Source: Cyanobacteriota bacterium (GTDB lineage Bacteria; Cyanobacteriota; Cyanobacteriia; PCC-6307; Cyanobiaceae). Taken from it: a stretch of DNA of 64,000 bases. Position 1 is the first letter of the stretch. Every line of letters starts with the position of its first letter. Location: positions 1 to 64,000 of the forward strand of contig JAPLIB010000153.1 of the NCBI GenBank assembly GCA_026389335.1. Direction: 5' to 3'. The position numbers and the translations under genes were made by a program. The notes under the pieces were generated by a model that saw nothing but the letters and a program-made list of their open reading frames with translations, was not told the DNA's origin and did no database searches. Positions 52,653 to 64,000 of this stretch are shown here, piece after piece.

Positions 52653-54023
52653 ATGACTTCCGTCGTCGTCCCCCCCGTCATGGAAACGCCAAAGCGCCAG
52701 CCCCTGCCGGAACCAATCACAGCGAAGAAGCCCCCCGAACTGCTCAATTTGATCGGCACCGATGAAACCGATATCTTGTATGGCAACAGAAACAACAACG
52801 CTTACCTGGCCGGCTCGGGTGACGACCTGATCAATGGCTCTGCCGGCAATGACAGCCTCAGCGGTGGTTCTGGGATCGACACCCTGGATTATGGGGGAGT
52901 GAACGCCGATATCACCTTCTCCAGGGGTGGGGTAATCACAAAATCTGGTGGCATGGGCACTGACACCATCGCCGCTTTTGATATTGAAGTGATCAAGGGC
53001 AATGCCAATCGCATCAATACGATCGACGGAAGCGGAGGCACAACCGCCGCCATCAACGTTGATCTCTCAACCAATTCTCTTGAAATTACCGGATTACCCG
53101 TGATTGGCAGCGCCAAGCTGACGGTCGTCAACTTCAGCAATGTCAATGGCTCCGAGAACAATGATGTGATCATCGGCGATGACAAGAGCAATGTGATCAA
53201 CGGAGCCGGAGGCGACGACAGCATGTCCGGTGCTGGTGGTGACGACCGCTTCCTCGGATCAAGCGGTTCCGATGTCTACCGAGGCGGGACAGGCGCCGAC
53301 AGCCTCAGCTACGAAGACTTCGCTGGGGGCGTCACCCTCGTGCGTGGGGGCACGATCATCAAGACGAATGGCTCGATTGACACCATCGCCGATTTTTCCA
53401 TTGAAACCATCATCGGAACCAAGGGCGTGGTCAACACGATTGACGGCTCTACCGGGGTAACAGCTGCCCTCAACGTCGATCTCTCCAAGCAGAATGTCAC
53501 GATCACTGGCCTGCCGTTTATCGGCACCGCCGCCCTCACGGTAAAGAACTTTACCGATGTCAATGGATCCGAGAATGCCGATACGATCACCGGCGATAAA
53601 GGCAACAATCGATTGCTCGGCAATGCGGGCAATGACATCCTCACCGGCCTTGGTGGCAAGGACAACCTGACCGGTGGTGCAGGCAGCGATACCTTTGTAG
53701 TCGGCTATGGGGATTCTCTACTGAGCGGCTTCGACCAGATCACAGACCTGGCCATTGGTGTTGATTCCATCGATGGCAGGGCCGCAGCTGCAGTCAGCCG
53801 TGTCGGCAGCGCAACGAGCCTGAATGCCGTTGATCTCAGCAAAGTGCTGACCACAAGCAACTTCCTGGCCAATGGGGCTGCGGCCTTTGTGGTGAGCTCC
53901 ACTGGCGGAGATCGCACGTTCCTGGCCTTGAATGATTCCCAGATTGGCTTCCAGGCTGGCAAGGACCTGATGGTTGAAATCACCGGCTATACGGGAAGCC
54001 TCAGTGATCTTGTGATTATTTGA
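52653..54023 (+). CDS. RTX-like calcium-binding protein, duplicated
   Basis: 456 aa. No Sec signal; acidic Gly-Asp-rich nonapeptides (SGDDLINGSAGNDSLSGGSG, GNDILTGLGGKDNLTGGAGSD) typical of RTX proteins that bind calcium and are secreted by a type I system. A module of about 135 residues (53-190) recurs at about 190-325, including ITGLP.IG.A.LTV.NF..VNGSEN. The C-terminal part (FDQITDLAIGVDSIDG to SDLVII) resembles the uncleaved secretion end. No type I transporter gene is in the window. Confidence 0.88.
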   Translation: MTSVVVPPVMETPKRQPLPEPITAKKPPELLNLIGTDETDILYGNRNNNAYLAGSGDDLINGSAGNDSLSGGSGIDTLDYGGVNADITFSRGGVITKSGGMGTDTIAAFDIEVIKGNANRINTIDGSGGTTAAINVDLSTNSLEITGLPVIGSAKLTVVNFSNVNGSENNDVIIGDDKSNVINGAGGDDSMSGAGGDDRFLGSSGSDVYRGGTGADSLSYEDFAGGVTLVRGGTIIKTNGSIDTIADFSIETIIGTKGVVNTIDGSTGVTAALNVDLSKQNVTITGLPFIGTAALTVKNFTDVNGSENADTITGDKGNNRLLGNAGNDILTGLGGKDNLTGGAGSDTFVVGYGDSLLSGFDQITDLAIGVDSIDGRAAAAVSRVGSATSLNAVDLSKVLTTSNFLANGAAAFVVSSTGGDRTFLALNDSQIGFQAGKDLMVEITGYTGSLSDLVII

Positions 54024-55599: not shown

Positions 55600-57384
55600 T
55601 CAATTCAGCGATGGAGGTGTCTCCAGATCGGGCCGCTGCTCTTCCATGCGGTCGATCCGTTCACGAACGTGCAGCAACGCCAGCCAGGCAGACTGGTCTC
55701 CAGCCAAGGGGGACTCTGGCAGAGCACTCTCAGCTTCCGGTAGCCGCACCGAGGTCATCGGCGGGAGCCAGAGTTCACCGGCCTCATCAAAACTGGCCCA
55801 GACCTGGCGGCCGGCGGCCTCAGGCCAGAGGTGAAGCGGCAGGACAAACCCGCACGCCTCGTGGTGCCCCTGGGCCGCCATGCCGGCACGGGGCAGCGTG
55901 CAGCTCAACGCCCGAGAGACCAACCCCTCGGCGTGCAACCAGACCGTGGCGGGACCAGAAGAGCGGGAATAGCACCAACCCCGCAGCTCGTCAGCTTCGG
56001 GACTGAGCCCATCGAAATGACCCCGCATCCCGCGCAACGCCAAGGCGAGGGCCGCTCTGAGGCGCTCGCCGGTGCCGTCGCCGGCATCGTTAGCCAGAAC
56101 CAGCGGGAAGCAGAAGGCTCGATCCGCCGTCATGGCCAGCAGGCGCAGCGGCTCGCCGGCCGAGGGATCAGGGTGGGAATCGGGTATCTCAAGCTGAAAA
56201 CCAAAGCGGCCGCTGCGTCCGAGTCGTTCGACCACATCAGGACGCTCCACATTGATCGGAGCCGTGGCGATCACCTGGGAACCCAGGAGAAGACGCACCT
56301 CCGTGAGGGCCAGCTCGGCATGGCTCACCCAGCCCATCACCTGGGATGGCGTGATGACATCAACCACTCCCTGAAGAGGCGTTGAAGGCTTGATCTTCGG
56401 TGGGTCCTTCTGCGGGAGCAAGGCTCTCAACCGGCTGATCCCGGCCGGCGCGCTCCGATCCGGTCCCTGCCGTTGAGACGGCTCAGGCAACATCGGCAAA
56501 TTCGCCTGAACCATCTCCCATTGGGACTGGGACCAGCGGTTCCGCCCCGTGGCGAGATCGAACGGATTGCGCAGGTACGGCCCACCCTGATCAGCGGGGA
56601 AGCTGTTCAAAGGAGTCGTATAGAGACAATCCGCAAAGTAGTAATGCACCACCTGACTCCAACGCCGGGCCTGCTTGTTGAGCACCGGGGTCCCACCGTG
56701 GAGAAGATTGGCATGCCAGATCAGCACCTCACCACGACGGGGAAGAAACTGTTCAACCTGCAGACCGTGAAGGTCGACCTCCCGTTGCCAGACAGATTCA
56801 AAAAAACGCTGGGGATGAGGTTCGGCCGCTACTTGTTCAGGACTGAGGCCAAGACTGCCTGCACTGTGGTAATCAAGCCGATGACTACCAGGAAAGTAAA
56901 TCAACGGGCCACTATCGGGTTGAACATCATCCAGAGGAATCCACACACCACACATGAAGCCATGGGGCTGAGAATGAAAGTGCACAGCATCACTGTGATA
57001 AGGCTGCTCGCTGCCCACGGCAAAGTTGAGCGTTTGGAAGGCAAAGGGTTCACGGCCATAGACATGGCGCAGCAAATCCAGCACAGCAGGTTGCAGGGCC
57101 AGGCTCCGCACCGCGGCCTGCTCACGCCATCCGTCCTGCACCCTTGGTGCGCCCGTCCGCCCAGCCTCCCAGTCGCTCAATTCAGGCTTGAGGCGCCGCT
57201 GCTGATCGGCGATCACCTCACGGCAATCGCTCAGAAATGAAGCATCGTCGATCTCGAGCAGGCAAAAGCCTTGGCGGCTGAGATTGGCGGCCTGCTTTGA
57301 CCAGCGGCCAAAGCGGCCCTCGGCCAGAAGGGTGTCGACATCGGGTCGATCAATCAGCGGCAGTCCTTGGAGATCGAGGGTCAT
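55600..57384 (-). CDS. PhyH-family dioxygenase with two C-terminal GWA-like modules
   Basis: 594 aa. The N-terminal half is a phytanoyl-CoA dioxygenase domain: iron ligands in HSDAVHFHSQPHG (His-x-Asp) and the distal HGGTPV, with CGVWIPLDDVQPDSGPLIYFPGSH. Residues about 335-590 hold two modules in which 'GWV/GWC' lies in a conserved position (MGWVSHAELALTEVRLLLG, LRGWCYSRSSGPATVWLHAEG), as in domains often fused to sugar-modifying proteins. 4-nt overlap with the upstream glycosyltransferase. Suggests modification of a capsule or lipid substrate, by context. Confidence 0.85.
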   Translation of the reverse strand: MTLDLQGLPLIDRPDVDTLLAEGRFGRWSKQAANLSRQGFCLLEIDDASFLSDCREVIADQQRRLKPELSDWEAGRTGAPRVQDGWREQAAVRSLALQPAVLDLLRHVYGREPFAFQTLNFAVGSEQPYHSDAVHFHSQPHGFMCGVWIPLDDVQPDSGPLIYFPGSHRLDYHSAGSLGLSPEQVAAEPHPQRFFESVWQREVDLHGLQVEQFLPRRGEVLIWHANLLHGGTPVLNKQARRWSQVVHYYFADCLYTTPLNSFPADQGGPYLRNPFDLATGRNRWSQSQWEMVQANLPMLPEPSQRQGPDRSAPAGISRLRALLPQKDPPKIKPSTPLQGVVDVITPSQVMGWVSHAELALTEVRLLLGSQVIATAPINVERPDVVERLGRSGRFGFQLEIPDSHPDPSAGEPLRLLAMTADRAFCFPLVLANDAGDGTGERLRAALALALRGMRGHFDGLSPEADELRGWCYSRSSGPATVWLHAEGLVSRALSCTLPRAGMAAQGHHEACGFVLPLHLWPEAAGRQVWASFDEAGELWLPPMTSVRLPEAESALPESPLAGDQSAWLALLHVRERIDRMEEQRPDLETPPSLN

Positions 57385-59471
57385 CGATGCTGGGCCTGGA
57401 GCATTCCTCCAGGCCTGGTAGTTGAACCTGATGGGCGTAGAGCCAGAGAAAAGTTCTCCTCAACCAGTGAAAGATGGGGACTATAGTGAGGATCCGCATT
57501 CAACAGATGTCCCCAACGCTGCAGCATCGACTGGCGCTCCTGTTGCCATTGAGCCATGGCTTCGGGGCTGGAAGGAGCGCCGCGGCTGCGAGATTCATGA
57601 TGGATGAGTGAGGCATCGGGGCAGTAGAGATTGCGGTAGCCACGAGCCATCAAGCGCAGACAGAGATCAACGTCGTTGTAGCTCACGGCGAAGCAGGCGG
57701 CATCAAAGCCACCCACCTCCAGAAACAAAGCCTTGCGCACAACCATCACGGCCGCGGTAACGGCACTGAGCTGATGGGTGAGTTGCAGCCGCAACTGGTA
57801 GCCATCGGCCCCCGCAGCAAAATATTTATGCGCATGACCGGCAATACCACCGATGCCGAGCAGTACGCCGGCATGCTGCACGGTGCCATCATCAAACAAC
57901 AAGCGGGCACCCACCGCTCCAATCTCCGGGCGCAGAGCCTGGGCCACCATCGTGGCCAACCAGCCGGGCTGCAAGGCTTCAACATCGTTATTGAGAAAAG
58001 CAAGAACCTCGCCGCGGGCCAGGCTGGCAGCATCATTATTCAGAGCGGCGTAGTTGAACGGCCCGGGCCGTCGCAGCAGTCGCACGCCCGGACGAGACTC
58101 GAGTTCGGCCAGATAAGCCACACTGGCTGGATCGGAGCTGCCGTTATCGATCAACAGAAGCTCGACGGGGAGATGGGCCGCCGCCGTACGCTCCAGCGAA
58201 TCCAGACAGCCGCGCAGCAACTCGGATCGATCACGGGTGGGAATGATCACACTGACGAGGGGCGCAAGATCCGGAAGCGACCAATGCAGGCAGTGGCCGC
58301 CAGCCGGGCGGGACGTGACCTCGATCGAGCGACCCTGACGCGCCAGAAAGTTAGCCAGAGTGGTGGCGCTGACGGAGTCGCCACGGCACTCACCGCAGCG
58401 ATCGGCCCGGTGATACAACACCTCGGGCAGATGCACGATCTGCTCGGGCCGGCAGGCAGCCGTAGCCTCAAGCACCAGGCCATAGAGACTGACGGACTCA
58501 GCCGCATCGGCGAGTCTGCGGGCAACCTTCTGGGCCAGATCGGCTCGGATCAACCAGCAATGGGAATAGTGGGGGTCGCTGTAGAGCAGATCAGGATTCC
58601 AGGACGGCTTGAACTGGGGACTGTGACGCCGGCCTGCTGAGCTGATGCGATCCTCGTCGGCATAGAGCACCAAGGCCTCTGGATGCTGGGCGAGCGCAGC
58701 TGTAAAGCGGAGCAGGGCCTGGCGAGCCAGCCGATCCCCGATCTGCAGCAGCACCAACCAAGCCTGGGGATCCTCGTTCTCAGCCGCACGGTCTGGATCA
58801 AGGAGCTCAAAAGGGCCAGGGAACTGACGTTTCAGGCTCTGAACCGAGATCTGCAGGCCGTTGGCATCGGGACTTTGGCCCCAGAGGCCTGGAGCGAAAC
58901 GGGGCCGGTGCCGATTGTCACCGGCAGCGGCAGGGTGGAGCGGGTCCTGGGCCACGCTCGGATCCGCGGCCAGCGCGGGCTGCTCGAGACGCTCGATCCA
59001 CTCGTCGTAGCCCACCAGGGGCCAATTGCCACGAGCCAGCAGGCGGTTGTAGTCGCTCCAGAGCCTTGAGAATGGACGTCTGCGCGTGTGCTGATCGTAA
59101 CCAGGGTGCAGCCTCAGCAACTTACGCTGCATCAAGCGACGAGCCCGCCAGGCTGTTTGGGGCTGCAGCCTCAGCACAGGCACCTGACTATCGCCATTGA
59201 GTCCATAGAGCTCAAAGGTGAGCTCCTGCGTACCGGCACGAATGCGCACCAGACGACGACGCAATCGGTTGCTGACCAGAACGCGACCCTGACACCCATT
59301 GAAGAGGCCAAAACAGCGCAGCTGCTCGCTGCGATGCAGCACGGTCAGCATGTACCAGCCGGGCCTTGGAGGCGACTTGAGAGCGAGACGCGCTGGTGAG
59401 GTCTCAACATCCCAGACCCAATCCTGACGGAGGCGAATGGAGAGCCAACGATGTAGAGAAAGGAATGACAT
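57381..59471 (-). CDS. GT2 glycosyltransferase with two GT-like halves
   Basis: 696 aa from ATG 59471 (MSFLSLHRW). An N-terminal region of about 230 residues (GWYMLTVLHRSEQLRCF), then a first GT2-like segment (LVLYADEDRISSAGRRHSPQFKPSWNPDLLYSD split by loops), then a full GT-A domain: LVSVIIPTRDRSELLRGCL, LLLIDNGSSDP, LNNDVEALQPGWL and YNDVDLCLRLMARGYRNLYCPD. Typical of long rhamnosyl-type transferases in capsule and O-antigen clusters. In an operon between kpsE and phyH. Confidence 0.88.
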   Translation of the reverse strand: MSFLSLHRWLSIRLRQDWVWDVETSPARLALKSPPRPGWYMLTVLHRSEQLRCFGLFNGCQGRVLVSNRLRRRLVRIRAGTQELTFELYGLNGDSQVPVLRLQPQTAWRARRLMQRKLLRLHPGYDQHTRRRPFSRLWSDYNRLLARGNWPLVGYDEWIERLEQPALAADPSVAQDPLHPAAAGDNRHRPRFAPGLWGQSPDANGLQISVQSLKRQFPGPFELLDPDRAAENEDPQAWLVLLQIGDRLARQALLRFTAALAQHPEALVLYADEDRISSAGRRHSPQFKPSWNPDLLYSDPHYSHCWLIRADLAQKVARRLADAAESVSLYGLVLEATAACRPEQIVHLPEVLYHRADRCGECRGDSVSATTLANFLARQGRSIEVTSRPAGGHCLHWSLPDLAPLVSVIIPTRDRSELLRGCLDSLERTAAAHLPVELLLIDNGSSDPASVAYLAELESRPGVRLLRRPGPFNYAALNNDAASLARGEVLAFLNNDVEALQPGWLATMVAQALRPEIGAVGARLLFDDGTVQHAGVLLGIGGIAGHAHKYFAAGADGYQLRLQLTHQLSAVTAAVMVVRKALFLEVGGFDAACFAVSYNDVDLCLRLMARGYRNLYCPDASLIHHESRSRGAPSSPEAMAQWQQERQSMLQRWGHLLNADPHYSPHLSLVEENFSLALRPSGSTTRPGGMLQAQHR

Positions 59472-59475
59472 CGTC

Positions 59476-60699
59476 CTACTGGCGATGACTGGCTTGCATG
59501 CCAAGCACAAACTTCGACAAGCTGAAAGCGACTGCACACGTAGCCACTATTGTGATAAAACCTTTGCTGCGCCAGTTGCCATCTGGATCCTCAGGCAGCT
59601 GAGGGGCTGAAAGCAGAGCCATGAACTTCTGCTGGCGCGTGCTTTCAACTCGAGCCTTTTCCACCGACGTCAGCGCCAGTTTGTAGCTATCTGTGGCGAA
59701 GGATACATCAGATTCAAGCTTGACAACATCGGCAGCCTTGCGATTGAGATTACGCCCCTTGACGGATAGCAGCAGGCGACGCTCCTGGGCAACCTGCTGC
59801 TCCAGCTCACGCGCTGCATCGGCAACGGCGAGAACCTCAGGCTCGCGTGGATCCTTGTACTGGCGTCGCAATGTAGCCAGTTCAACCTTCTTCTCGACAA
59901 GCTGCTCCTGAAGCTTATTGATAGACATACTAGCCATCTGGGCCTCACCCTTGGGATCAATCACCACCGCATTCTTATCCTGGTAAATGATCAGCCGATT
60001 CTTGATCAACTCCAAGTTAGCACGGGCACGCCGCAGCTCTGCTTCTGCAAAGCGGAGCTGCTTCAGACTGATATCTTGATTGAGGCGATTGACAAAATTC
60101 TCACTTTTTGCGAGCATGAAACGATTCAGATCAAAGGAAGTCCGAGGGTCCAGAGCCACAGTGCGCAATACAATGGCACCTGACAGCTCATCCAGGCTTA
60201 CCGAAACCTGCTTCTTGAAGAAGTTAAGCGTTTTCTCGGGACTCGAGCCCGCCTGAATACCGGCGAAGGGATCACGACTATCACGGGCGTAAGATTTTTC
60301 AATATTGAAGCTGCGCTTGAGATCACTGAGAACCTGCGGGGACTGCAGATAAGTCTTAAGGTAGCGAGCATCTTCTAGCGACAGTTGATTACTTCGGCCC
60401 AACAGAGAGCCAAGACTGCCACCATCAGCATTGGCTGCATCTTCAGCTTTGCGGATCACAAAATCAGATCGAGTCACAAAGCGATCCCTGGCAATGACAT
60501 AGAAGTAGAGCGCCGAACCCAGCACGGGAATGAGCAATAACTGAGCAACAGAGAATCGGCGCAGACGATTGGCGCGTACCGCTGGGGGGACAACGGGCAC
60601 CACCTTCGCGTTGCTGGCAAAATCGTCATCGGTGAGCAACTGTGACTTCTGATTGTCAGCGAAAAAACGCTTGAGCGGGCTGCGATCCAAATCGATCAT
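59476..60699 (-). CDS. kpsE: Capsule export inner-membrane protein KpsE/BexC-like
   Basis: 407 aa. Two transmembrane helices (about 50-68 and 380-398) flank a long periplasmic coiled coil (LELIKNRLIIYQDKN to VELATLRRQYKDPREPEVL, with further heptads). Belongs to the BexC/CtrB/KpsE family that spans the periplasm in group 2 capsule export. Follows kpsT after 78 nt; the glycosyltransferase start is 4 nt after its stop. Confidence 0.9.
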   Translation of the reverse strand: MIDLDRSPLKRFFADNQKSQLLTDDDFASNAKVVPVVPPAVRANRLRRFSVAQLLLIPVLGSALYFYVIARDRFVTRSDFVIRKAEDAANADGGSLGSLLGRSNQLSLEDARYLKTYLQSPQVLSDLKRSFNIEKSYARDSRDPFAGIQAGSSPEKTLNFFKKQVSVSLDELSGAIVLRTVALDPRTSFDLNRFMLAKSENFVNRLNQDISLKQLRFAEAELRRARANLELIKNRLIIYQDKNAVVIDPKGEAQMASMSINKLQEQLVEKKVELATLRRQYKDPREPEVLAVADAARELEQQVAQERRLLLSVKGRNLNRKAADVVKLESDVSFATDSYKLALTSVEKARVESTRQQKFMALLSAPQLPEDPDGNWRSKGFITIVATCAVAFSLSKFVLGMQASHRQ

Positions 60700-60777
60700 G
60701 ATTAAAACAAGAGAAAGAGCGCTAACGGTTAAAAGCTATGGTCAAATCACAGGATCACTGGAAACTCCAGGTCTGTT

Positions 60778-61467
60778 CTAATGCGCCGAAGCAGCCGATA
60801 CCGTACCGGCCAGGAGACGGTCAGTATGAATTGCAACGGCTTCATCAAGATTATCAAATTCCTCTATGTTGCCACGTTCGAGAATAAAGGCCCGATCGCA
60901 ATGCAGCTTCAAGCCCCATAGGTTGTGATCCACCATCAGGAAATCCGCCCGCTTCTTTCTGTCCAGCAACATTCTCTTGCTCTTTTCCCGGAATCTCTGA
61001 TCTCCTGCAGCGGTAACCTCGTCAATCAGATAAACATCAAAATCAAACGCCATCGACAAACCGAAGGCGATGCGAGAGCGCATACCACTTGAATAGGTCT
61101 TGAAAGGGCGATCAAAGTACACGCCAAGCTCGGCAAACTCTTCTACGTAACGAATCTTCTCGGGAATATTTCGCTTGGCGGCATAAATACGGCTGACAAA
61201 CGTGACATTCTCTCGGCCCGTCAGGCTTCCTTGAAAACCACCGGCAATCCCCACGGGCCAAGAAACGGAAGCATCTGTTTCAATCGTGCCCCTGTCGGGG
61301 AGATCAATGCCACCGAGCAGCCTCAGCAACGTGCTCTTGCCAGCACCATTGGCGCCAAGGATCGCCACTGATTCACCCGTTGCAATCGTGAAATCAAGGT
61401 TTTCAAAGATGATACTGCGACGCCCCTTATACACATAGCTTTTGGTGAGACCGCGAACTCGAATCAT
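60778..61467 (-). CDS. kpsT: Capsule polysaccharide ABC ATPase KpsT
   Basis: 229 aa. Walker A GANGAGKST at about 40-48, Walker B region YLIDEVTAAGD, a YSSGMRSRIAFGLSMAF signature (KpsT-type) and DHNLWGLKLHCDRAF. Powers capsule export with KpsM. 52 nt from the kpsM stop. Confidence 0.93.
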   Translation of the reverse strand: MIRVRGLTKSYVYKGRRSIIFENLDFTIATGESVAILGANGAGKSTLLRLLGGIDLPDRGTIETDASVSWPVGIAGGFQGSLTGRENVTFVSRIYAAKRNIPEKIRYVEEFAELGVYFDRPFKTYSSGMRSRIAFGLSMAFDFDVYLIDEVTAAGDQRFREKSKRMLLDRKKRADFLMVDHNLWGLKLHCDRAFILERGNIEEFDNLDEAVAIHTDRLLAGTVSAASAH

Positions 61468-61519
61468 ACCAGCTTCTCACAAAGGGCAAACAGAGGCTTC
61501 CAAAACCCAATTAATACAA

Positions 61520-62350
61520 TCAAAGCGTTAAAAGACGGCGCTCATTGATTGAATAAAACCAGCAAGCGATAGCTGCCTGGACAATGGCCCAAACAATAAC
61601 ATAATTCAAGCTAGCATCTGGCGTAAAGTATTCATCACTCATCGCCTTACGGTTCAATTCGATACAATGCATCAGAGGGTTCCAGACGAAAAAGGACCTT
61701 GTCCAGTCGGGGAATTTCCAGTAACGGAAAGGAACTCCCGAAAGGAACCACAAAATGCGAGGAATCCAAATAGCCACCTGACTAAAAGCCGGCAAAATAT
61801 GGCTGGCTGTCATAAAAATGACTCCCGTAGAAAACCCCAAAAACGTCGCCAACAAGATTGAAACCAGAAAGAGGCCAAGATCTGACATCACCACCTGATC
61901 AAGGTAAATCCAGGTACCCGCAAGCATGATGAACATGCAGCAGAAGAAAAGGCCTGATTCACAGACTGCGCGAGAAATAACCGTATCAATCGGCTTAACG
62001 GGTCGATAGAATAAAAGCGCTTCATTAGCCTGAATAGCCGTAATACTGCGACTTGCTATTGTGGAAAAAATACTATACAGGATAATCCCAGATGTCAGAA
62101 AAAGGACCACATTCAAGCTGCCACCTCGATTTACATTCAAAGCTGAAAGAAAGATCATCCAGATTGCCAACAGCCCGAGCGGCTGCAGCAGCACACCCAG
62201 GAAGCCACCCCTCACCTCGCTAACGCGTGTGCGTAGCTCGCGATAGGTGAGAGCATCAACCACACGCCACTGAATACGCCAACCGCTAAGACCTTGGATG
62301 CCATCGGTGCGCTTTCCCAATCGACCACTGCCAGCGATAGAAGTTGCCAA
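61520..62350 (-). CDS. kpsM: Capsule polysaccharide ABC permease KpsM
   Basis: 276 aa from a TTG at 62350. ABC-2 permease with six helices; N-terminal RELRTRVSEVRGGFLGVLLQPLGLLAIW and IPRILWFLSGVPFRYWKFPDW match KpsM-type proteins. First gene of the export operon kpsM-kpsT-kpsE-GT-phyH; the DUF1997 gene lies 23 nt upstream. Confidence 0.92.
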   Translation of the reverse strand: MATSIAGSGRLGKRTDGIQGLSGWRIQWRVVDALTYRELRTRVSEVRGGFLGVLLQPLGLLAIWMIFLSALNVNRGGSLNVVLFLTSGIILYSIFSTIASRSITAIQANEALLFYRPVKPIDTVISRAVCESGLFFCCMFIMLAGTWIYLDQVVMSDLGLFLVSILLATFLGFSTGVIFMTASHILPAFSQVAIWIPRILWFLSGVPFRYWKFPDWTRSFFVWNPLMHCIELNRKAMSDEYFTPDASLNYVIVWAIVQAAIACWFYSINERRLLTL

Positions 62351-62373: not shown

Positions 62374-62925
62374 CTAAACCTCAGCCTGTACATACGAGAG
62401 CCAAACCAGCAGGTCCTTGGCCAGTCCACGCCTCAGACGACGCTCCATCCTGTCCAGAACCTGTTCGAGCGCCCTGGCCGCCAGCGATTTTCCCCAGCCT
62501 GGCACCGTAGAAGGCAAGGCCACCCACACAGTCGCCAACACATTCAACACCGCTGAACCTGGCCTGAGATCTGCCACGAGGCCAAAGGTGAGGACATCGG
62601 CCCAGCGACCCAGCCCGACAATGCGGCAGTTGACACTGAGCAGATGGAGGCAGGCCCCCTGGCAGCAGGCCTGAAGCTCCAGGGTGGGCACCAGTTCATA
62701 CTGCAGCAGCCGGAGAGGATTGGAAGAGTAGCGGAAGCGACCGAGACCAAGCGCTTGTGTTCTACTGTGAGCGAGCAGCGCAGCCACAGGCCGATCCACC
62801 AAGGCCAGATAGGCCGCAAGCCGCTCTGGTGTGGCACCGGGATCGTTCACCTGCAAGGCACAATCGCGACGACGCGTGACCATGACGTCCTCGTTCGATG
62901 CCTGAGCTGACGGCTTATTGTTCAT
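62374..62925 (-). CDS. DUF1997 protein
   Basis: 183 aa. A steroidogenic/START-like cyanobacterial family: YLALVDRPVAALLAHSRTQALG, FRYSSNPLRLLQYELVPTLELQ, LHLLSVNCRIVGLGRW, and the closing LPSTVPGWGKSLAARALEQVLDRMERRLRRGLAKDLLVW. Function unknown, though widespread in photosynthetic organisms. Probably in the same transcript as kpsM by spacing; divergent from kpsC by 55 nt. Confidence 0.82.
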   Translation of the reverse strand: MNNKPSAQASNEDVMVTRRRDCALQVNDPGATPERLAAYLALVDRPVAALLAHSRTQALGLGRFRYSSNPLRLLQYELVPTLELQACCQGACLHLLSVNCRIVGLGRWADVLTFGLVADLRPGSAVLNVLATVWVALPSTVPGWGKSLAARALEQVLDRMERRLRRGLAKDLLVWLSYVQAEV

Positions 62926-62980
62926 TTCAATCAGCGCATGTCAATCGTTAGCAGGTTGCGATGGACTAGGCGGCAAGCTG

Positions 62981-64000
62981 ATGGAGAATAACCCAACTCC
63001 CACACCGCCTAACACCACGCCAGCGGACCTCAGGACACCAAGGCTCCTGCAGGCTGGCCCCGTTCTGGGTGTGCCCAGCGCCGGCATGGCCCGGATCTCC
63101 ACCCTGGAGCCGTTGCTGGCGCCGGCCCAACTCCTTCGGGGCCACAAAGCCTGCCGAGAGCAGGCTCTTGACGCGCTGCTGGCTTGGGGCAACAAGCCAT
63201 CGGCACAAAAGGCCGAACGCCTGGCCGAGCAGCGCAACCTCCCCCTATGGCGCTGCGAGGACGGTTTTCTGCGCTCGCTCGGACTCGGTGCTGACGGCCC
63301 ACCCCTCTCTCTGGTGGTGGACGACCTCGGCATCTATTACGACGCGACGCGACCGAGCCGGCTGGAGGCCTTGATCGCCGCCCCGCTGGGGGCCAACGCC
63401 CGACAGCGAGCCCAGCATTTACAACAGCTCTGGTGCCAGGAACGGCTGAGCAAGTACAACGGCGCCCGCGAATCCATACCACCCCTGGAGCCTTTTGTGC
63501 TGGTTGTGGACCAGACGGCCGGCGACCAGTCGATCCGCAGCGGCTTGGCCGATGCCGGCAGCTTCCATACCATGCTGGAGACTGCCCGGCGCGACCATCC
63601 GCACTGCCGGGTCGTGCTCAAGATTCATCCGGATGTGGCCCGAGGCCGCAAAAAGGGGCATTACAGCGCAGCCCTCCGCAGGGATCCGCGCTTGGTGCTC
63701 TGTGCCGATGGCGGCCATCCCGCGGCTCTGCTGCAACAGGCCCGGGCCGTGTATGTGGTGACATCGCAGCTGGGCTTTGAAGCACTGCTCTGGAACAAAA
63801 CTGTGCATTGCTTCGGCATGCCGTTCTATGCCGGCTGGGGTCTCACCCGTGATGCCCTGCCGGCACCGGAACGACGACTGGACGGCAGCGATCTTGAACG
63901 GTTGATTCATGCGGCGCTGATCGACTACCCGGCCTACTTCGACCCCCATCACCACAACCGCTGTAGCCCGGAACGGCTGATGCGGGTGCTGGGTCTGCAG
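62981..64000 (+). CDS. kpsC: Capsule polysaccharide biosynthesis protein KpsC, partial
   Basis: 340 codons from ATG 62981 to the window edge, no stop reached, so the gene is truncated by the window. Contains AWGNKPSAQKAERLAEQRNLPLWRCEDGFLRSLGLG and LSLVVDDLGIYYDATRPSRLE, then VLKIHPDVARGRKKGHYSA and TSQLGFEALLWNKTVHCFGMPFYAGWGLT, all hallmarks of KpsC, a Kdo-transferase-like enzyme that builds the lipid-linked capsule base. The full protein usually has two such copies; only the first is seen. Confidence 0.9.
   Translation, partial: MENNPTPTPPNTTPADLRTPRLLQAGPVLGVPSAGMARISTLEPLLAPAQLLRGHKACREQALDALLAWGNKPSAQKAERLAEQRNLPLWRCEDGFLRSLGLGADGPPLSLVVDDLGIYYDATRPSRLEALIAAPLGANARQRAQHLQQLWCQERLSKYNGARESIPPLEPFVLVVDQTAGDQSIRSGLADAGSFHTMLETARRDHPHCRVVLKIHPDVARGRKKGHYSAALRRDPRLVLCADGGHPAALLQQARAVYVVTSQLGFEALLWNKTVHCFGMPFYAGWGLTRDALPAPERRLDGSDLERLIHAALIDYPAYFDPHHHNRCSPERLMRVLGLQ

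Follow-up and report, generated by a model that had tools for sequence, protein, structure and literature searches.

The question raised by this locus is what an oxygenase of the PhyH family, joined to two modules of a kind carried by glycosyltransferases, may be doing at the end of a capsule operon belonging to a single freshwater lineage of cyanobacterial operons of this type. The locus lies in a 64,000-nucleotide stretch of contig JAPLIB010000153.1 from a cyanobacterium of the family Cyanobiaceae, hereafter the window (Table 1). The answer that we favour, with about an even chance of being right, is that the gene codes for a docked oxygenase that tailors the capsule in one Kps subtype of Cyanobium-like cyanobacteria, acting most likely on a capsule sugar.

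Table 1 The fused gene, its parts and the neighbouring Kps genes. Positions are those of the window; loci with the prefix L are related loci described in the text.
Feature	Position	Strand	Evidence or remark
Fused PhyH and two GWA modules gene, 594 aa	55600..57384	-	ORF translation, Pfam match
PhyH catalytic domain, residues 1-292	56509..57384	-	PF05721, AF2 model, dN/dS 0.095
HxD iron-binding motif H130-S131-D132	56989..56997	-	H130 and D132 invariant in 13 relatives
H229, distal iron-binding histidine	56698..56700	-	Invariant in 13 relatives
R241, presumed 2-oxoglutarate-binding arginine	56662..56664	-	Invariant in 13 relatives; role inferred from the PhyH family
Linker, residues 293-336	56377..56508	-	dN/dS 1.02, near-neutral
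GWA module 1, residues 337-428	56101..56376	-	
GWA module 2, residues 450-551	55732..56037	-	Homologous to N-terminal modules of large glycosyltransferases
GT2-family glycosyltransferase	57381..59537	-	PF00535; true start probably near 59510 (comparison with L038)
KpsE / BexC-CtrB-like export protein	59476..60699	-	TIGR01010 2.2e-67, below the model's cut-off
KpsT-like ABC ATPase	60778..61467	-	PF00005
KpsM-like ABC permease	61520..62350	-	NF050053 5.8e-35, below the model's cut-off
DUF1997 protein between KpsM and KpsC	62374..62925	-	PF09366; same place in L034, L035, L037
KpsC-like Kdo transferase, start	62918..64000, on to G000:C25:65068	+	PF05159

The reading frame of the fused gene has no internal stops, its residues 58-241 match the Pfam PhyH model PF05721 (5.7e-20, 72.9 bits against a cut-off of 22), and its two modules prove related by profile comparison (hhalign P 2e-4), so the initial annotation of a PhyH dioxygenase with two GWA-like modules stands. 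The same fusion is found in frame in a second assembly, locus L038, where the protein has 591 aa and is 88% identical, which rules out a sequencing artefact or a frameshift join. Between the window and L038 the PhyH part has a dN/dS of 0.095, against 1.02 in the linker, 0.23 and 0.47 in the two modules and 0.70 in the tail. Purifying selection is thus strong on the catalytic half and weaker on the modules, which rules out decay of the fused gene. The initial annotation had left room for the fusion being strain-specific decay, and this did not prove to be the case because of the selection on the catalytic half and the presence of the fusion in L038. The L038 record (CALPNT020000100.1) is titled as a Bifidobacterium breve MAG, yet it carries a cyanobacterial Kps operon and matches the ndhH end of the window over 347 bp (95%); its content is plainly cyanobacterial, and the record looks mis-binned or mislabelled.

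In the alignment of 13 relatives, H130, D132, H229 and R241 are invariant and are predicted to make up a complete HxD...H...R site, with the arginine as the putative 2-oxoglutarate ligand. The AlphaFold model of the PhyH part (pLDDT 86.5) adopts a double-stranded beta-helix fold of the PhyH type and is nearest to SnoN and EctD (Z 18.8), with human PAHX at Z 18.1, and a profile search against solved structures led to the same families. The fold, the site and the Pfam match are thus shared with the PhyH-family oxygenases (PF05721: PAHX, EctD, SnoN/SnoK), but the identity to the solved members found is about 20% or less and, unlike them, the window protein comes from a Kps capsule operon and bears two glycosyltransferase-associated modules. 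KanJ, HygX, AviO1, EvdMO1 and SnoN, which act on aminoglycoside, orthosomycin or amino-sugar moieties, are of the same fold class, whereas they belong to antibiotic pathways and not to a capsule, and we know of no fusion in them resembling that of the window gene. Counting against a sugar substrate, enzymes with the PhyH fold act on amino acids, lipids and polyketides as well as on sugars, and in the fold comparison the scores of EctD and the proline hydroxylases are close to that of SnoN.

Outside the PhyH domain, the modules included, the protein matches no Pfam or NCBIfam model, and no sequence match of note between the modules and solved structures was obtained. The modules are predicted (mean pLDDT 86) to be two Ig/FnIII-like beta-sandwiches followed by a short helix. 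Only generic Ig/FnIII-like neighbours were returned by the PDB fold search, the best of them being a biofilm protein (Z 7.2, rmsd 3.2 over 85 residues) which is uninformative on the ligand, and the assignment of the modules to a specific known fold was dropped on these grounds. A module 2 profile built without any glycosyltransferase matched the N-termini of large GT2 proteins with values from 8e-11 to 2e-6, and these N-termini were then added to the profile before it was used to search 151 Cyanobiaceae genomes. The widened profile detected 24 places in 22 genomes, including 16 frames of 906-1169 aa also matching GT2 (with Pfam confirmation in L085, L091 and L108) and two very large proteins with multiple GT4 domains. 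The six left over comprise the fused gene, four stand-alone proteins with two modules each and a short stand-alone protein from genome G074. Wherever module 2 is part of another kind of protein in these related genomes, that protein has glycosyltransferase domains (18 of 18), which for this set bears out the earlier claim that the modules belong with sugar-handling proteins; a glycosyltransferase-associated module is a correlate of sugar work only. Beyond the family the modules are rare, being present in four of 292 genomes sampled phylum-wide, one of which is from outside the family and has the module in a TPR-GT2 protein. The large cyanobacterial GT2-GT4 glycosyltransferases with N-terminal GWA modules (for example, that of G119, 980 aa) possess a homologous module 2 (E down to 8e-11), but theirs is attached to glycosyltransferase domains, whereas that of the window is attached to an oxygenase.

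The minus-strand gene order is kpsM-kpsT-kpsE-GT2-PhyH, the PhyH gene being the last and sharing a 4-bp ATGA overlap (57381-57384) with the GT2 gene. Divergent genes extending past the window include kpsC, kpsS, a GNAT gene, a GT4-type gene, a KpsD/Wza gene and a gene coding for a stand-alone two-module protein. The export set consisting of KpsM, KpsT, KpsE and KpsD is present, with matches under the NCBIfam equivalog or subfamily cut-offs, PF05159 (KpsC/KpsS) is found in two neighbouring proteins, and KdsA and KdsB are found over cut-off in the genome. Judged by its gene content, this is a full Kps-type capsule locus with the capsule on a putative lipid-Kdo anchor; the capsule operon initially annotated here was confirmed with all of KpsM, KpsT, KpsE, KpsC, KpsS and KpsD, and so was its overlap with the glycosyltransferase gene. 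KpsM, T, E, D, C and S are common to the ABC-dependent Kps capsule systems of groups 2 and 3, and compared to those systems the window locus adds the PhyH-module unit and a KpsS with a C-terminal acyltransferase domain. The latter domain (PF01553, LPLAT) belongs to the KpsS encoded at L024:3098-5086, equivalent to G000:C25:65098-67086, and the fusion looks conserved because the KpsS homologues of G092 (675 aa) and G077 (654 aa) are of similar full length.

PF05159 (Capsule_synth) was found in 22 of the 151 family genomes. All seven PF05159-positive genomes tested possess both KdsA and KdsB, and four of six PF05159-negative genomes are without KdsA and without an over-cut-off KdsB match, a pattern that fits Kdo synthesis for the capsule. 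It was suggested in a 2015 survey that the poly-Kdo linker is possibly absent from cyanobacterial polysaccharides (PMC4594306). The cyanobacterial locus described here has the full set of Kps and Kdo genes.

The kpsM-kpsT-kpsE-GT2-PhyH order is found in ten loci, namely the window, L033-L038, G148, G092 and G077, and among them the oxygenase-module fusion occurs only in the window and L038. In L033, L034, L036 and G148, L036 being from Cyanobium sp. Aljojuca 7A6, the PhyH gene codes for 292-299 aa only, and 16-56 bp behind it begins the gene of a separate two-module protein (315-339 aa). The fusion is thus the derived form, most relatives having separate adjoining PhyH (about 295 aa) and two-module (about 315 aa) genes, and since the fused and split forms have the same neighbours, both parts probably act together. 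The remaining loci show further variation. In L035 (9136-10290) a radical SAM ORF and a SPASM ORF, perhaps one gene split in two, lie between the PhyH gene and the module protein and may represent a further tailoring enzyme for the same capsule. G092 (L027:10115-11926) has two tandem PhyH domains in one 603-aa gene ahead of the module protein. In G077 (L029:16444-17349) a stop interrupts PhyH, which may be due to decay or to a sequencing error, and the module protein is located on another contig. In addition to the fused gene, the window genome encodes a separate two-module protein downstream of kpsD (G000:C25:70365-71309), with which the stand-alone proteins in L036 and G148 share 56% identity, compared with about 40% with the fused modules. 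In the tree of module proteins it groups with the stand-alone proteins of the other loci, the fused pair being apart; an origin of the fused gene by duplication followed by fusion is only suggested by this grouping because of its weak support (68/80) and a long-branch warning.

Co-occurrence of PhyH and Kps genes, proposed as a check in the initial annotation, is seen in these ten loci, which were partly found through PhyH itself; less biased support therefore comes from 17 KpsE-bearing genomes, chosen independently of PhyH and obtained by a KpsE search of 20 genomes. Four of them, the window genome with G148, G092 and G077, have a window-type KpsE (E of 5e-94 at most) with the same GT2 next in line, and PhyH is present in each of these four, whereas the 13 genomes with a diverged KpsE (E 1e-41 to 1e-76) have other genes 3' of kpsE and none has a PhyH of the window group. 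By chance alone such a split, 4/4 versus 0/13, would have a probability of 1 in 2380 by hand computation, but it is only an indication because the genomes are related and not phylogenetically independent. Phylum-wide, a search for PhyH relatives at E 1e-40 returned the window genome alone (1/292), and the remaining distribution therefore rests on the family-level set. The surroundings of more remote PhyH relatives are mixed. In a Bacteroidetes MAG they are polysaccharide-like, with a GT4, a sulfotransferase and a MatE flippase-like protein close by, while relatives in Peribacteria, Rhodanobacter and Planctomycetota are situated outside polysaccharide clusters, which counts against the favoured reading.

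On the favoured reading, the N-terminal half would be an Fe(II)/2-oxoglutarate oxygenase and the two C-terminal beta-sandwich modules an adaptor of the kind found at the N-terminus of large glycosyltransferases. The adaptor most likely tethers the oxygenase to the GT2/KpsMTE assembly, presumably on the cytoplasmic side, where the enzyme would hydroxylate, epimerise or otherwise oxidise a sugar prior to export, whether in the growing capsule chain or as the activated precursor. In the split-gene relatives the oxygenase and the adaptor would have to come together as a complex, while in the window they are fused, and the existence of both forms makes such a protein complex a testable prediction. 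By eye, the stand-alone module proteins have short basic, partly hydrophobic stretches before module 1 (for example, KGRRLKRYLGLRR) and after the tail helix, and the fused linker retains one such basic stretch, ISRLRALLPQK; membrane attachment of the protein might be their role. The tailoring reactions known to us for capsules exported by ABC transporters are acetylation, sulfation, phosphorylation and the like, and oxidation by a 2-oxoglutarate oxygenase would, if true, be an added class. Our literature search returned no paper relating phytanoyl-CoA dioxygenase to capsular polysaccharide genes in such a role.

It is unlikely, although worth considering, that the oxygenase acts on the polymer itself, the glycosyltransferase-type modules placing it at the GT2/KpsMTE exporter so that sugars of the nascent chain are hydroxylated or epimerised before export; if so, this would be tailoring of a new kind among ABC-dependent capsules. 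Somewhat less doubtful is the suggestion that it makes a small precursor, either a nucleotide sugar or an acyl or amino-acid capsule substituent, with the modules serving for localisation or stability only. The PhyH relatives of known structure do include the small-molecule hydroxylases EctD and H11, and the locus has a GNAT-like acyltransferase and the LPLAT domain on KpsS, but the fusion to modules of the glycosyltransferase type and the ATGA overlap with GT2 point to action near the polymerising enzyme, and the stretch examined yielded no recognisable gene for a nucleotide-sugar enzyme. That the gene is a relic or an incidental neighbour with no capsule role is very improbable: the stop in the PhyH frame of G077 and the rarity of relatives phylum-wide (1/292 genomes) would fit it, while the intact catalytic site, the low PhyH dN/dS and the operon place conserved in ten loci argue against it.

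The Kps anchor, meaning the Kdo linker or its lipid, is a distinctly improbable substrate, despite the precedent of KdoO, a dioxygenase acting on Kdo in the lipopolysaccharide core of Burkholderia (PMC5462993). KpsC, KpsS, KdsA and KdsB are all present in the window genome, so Kdo is probably made there, and KdoO resembles the oxygenase proposed here in being a dioxygenase for a surface polysaccharide sugar, differing in its setting, which is the lipopolysaccharide core and not a Kps capsule (PMC5462993). KdoO is not among the fold and profile matches listed for the PhyH part, an absence compatible with kinship. To our knowledge, no modules occur on KdoO. Against the anchor, the 13 related genomes without a window-group PhyH carry Capsule_synth genes and KpsE, and the oxygenase is therefore no general need of a Kdo-lipid anchor; moreover, the PhyH gene is placed after the glycosyltransferase gene, away from kpsC and kpsS. 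In G023 the PhyH relative is located 3.3 kb from a Bac_transf priming sugar transferase with a GT4 nearby, in a genome without PF05159/KpsC, and therefore points to a glycan and not to the Kps anchor. The shared Kdo-lipid anchor is thus less likely than a capsule sugar to be the substrate, and the oxidation of the lipid carrier, which the initial annotation had offered as an alternative, is weakened by the 13 Kps genomes without PhyH and by the G023 relative.

Two further features of the window deserve mention. Between ndhH and the capsule operon (52653-54023) there is a gene coding for a 456-aa protein with RTX calcium-binding repeats (PF00353). The synonymous divergence between the window (59476-62350) and L038 (2717-5594) is 0.8-1.15 for kpsM, kpsT and kpsE, compared with 0.36 for kpsC, 0.28 for GT2 and 0.26 for the PhyH gene on the flanks; being two to four times as diverged as the flanks, the transporter block looks as if it had been swapped by recombination in one lineage.
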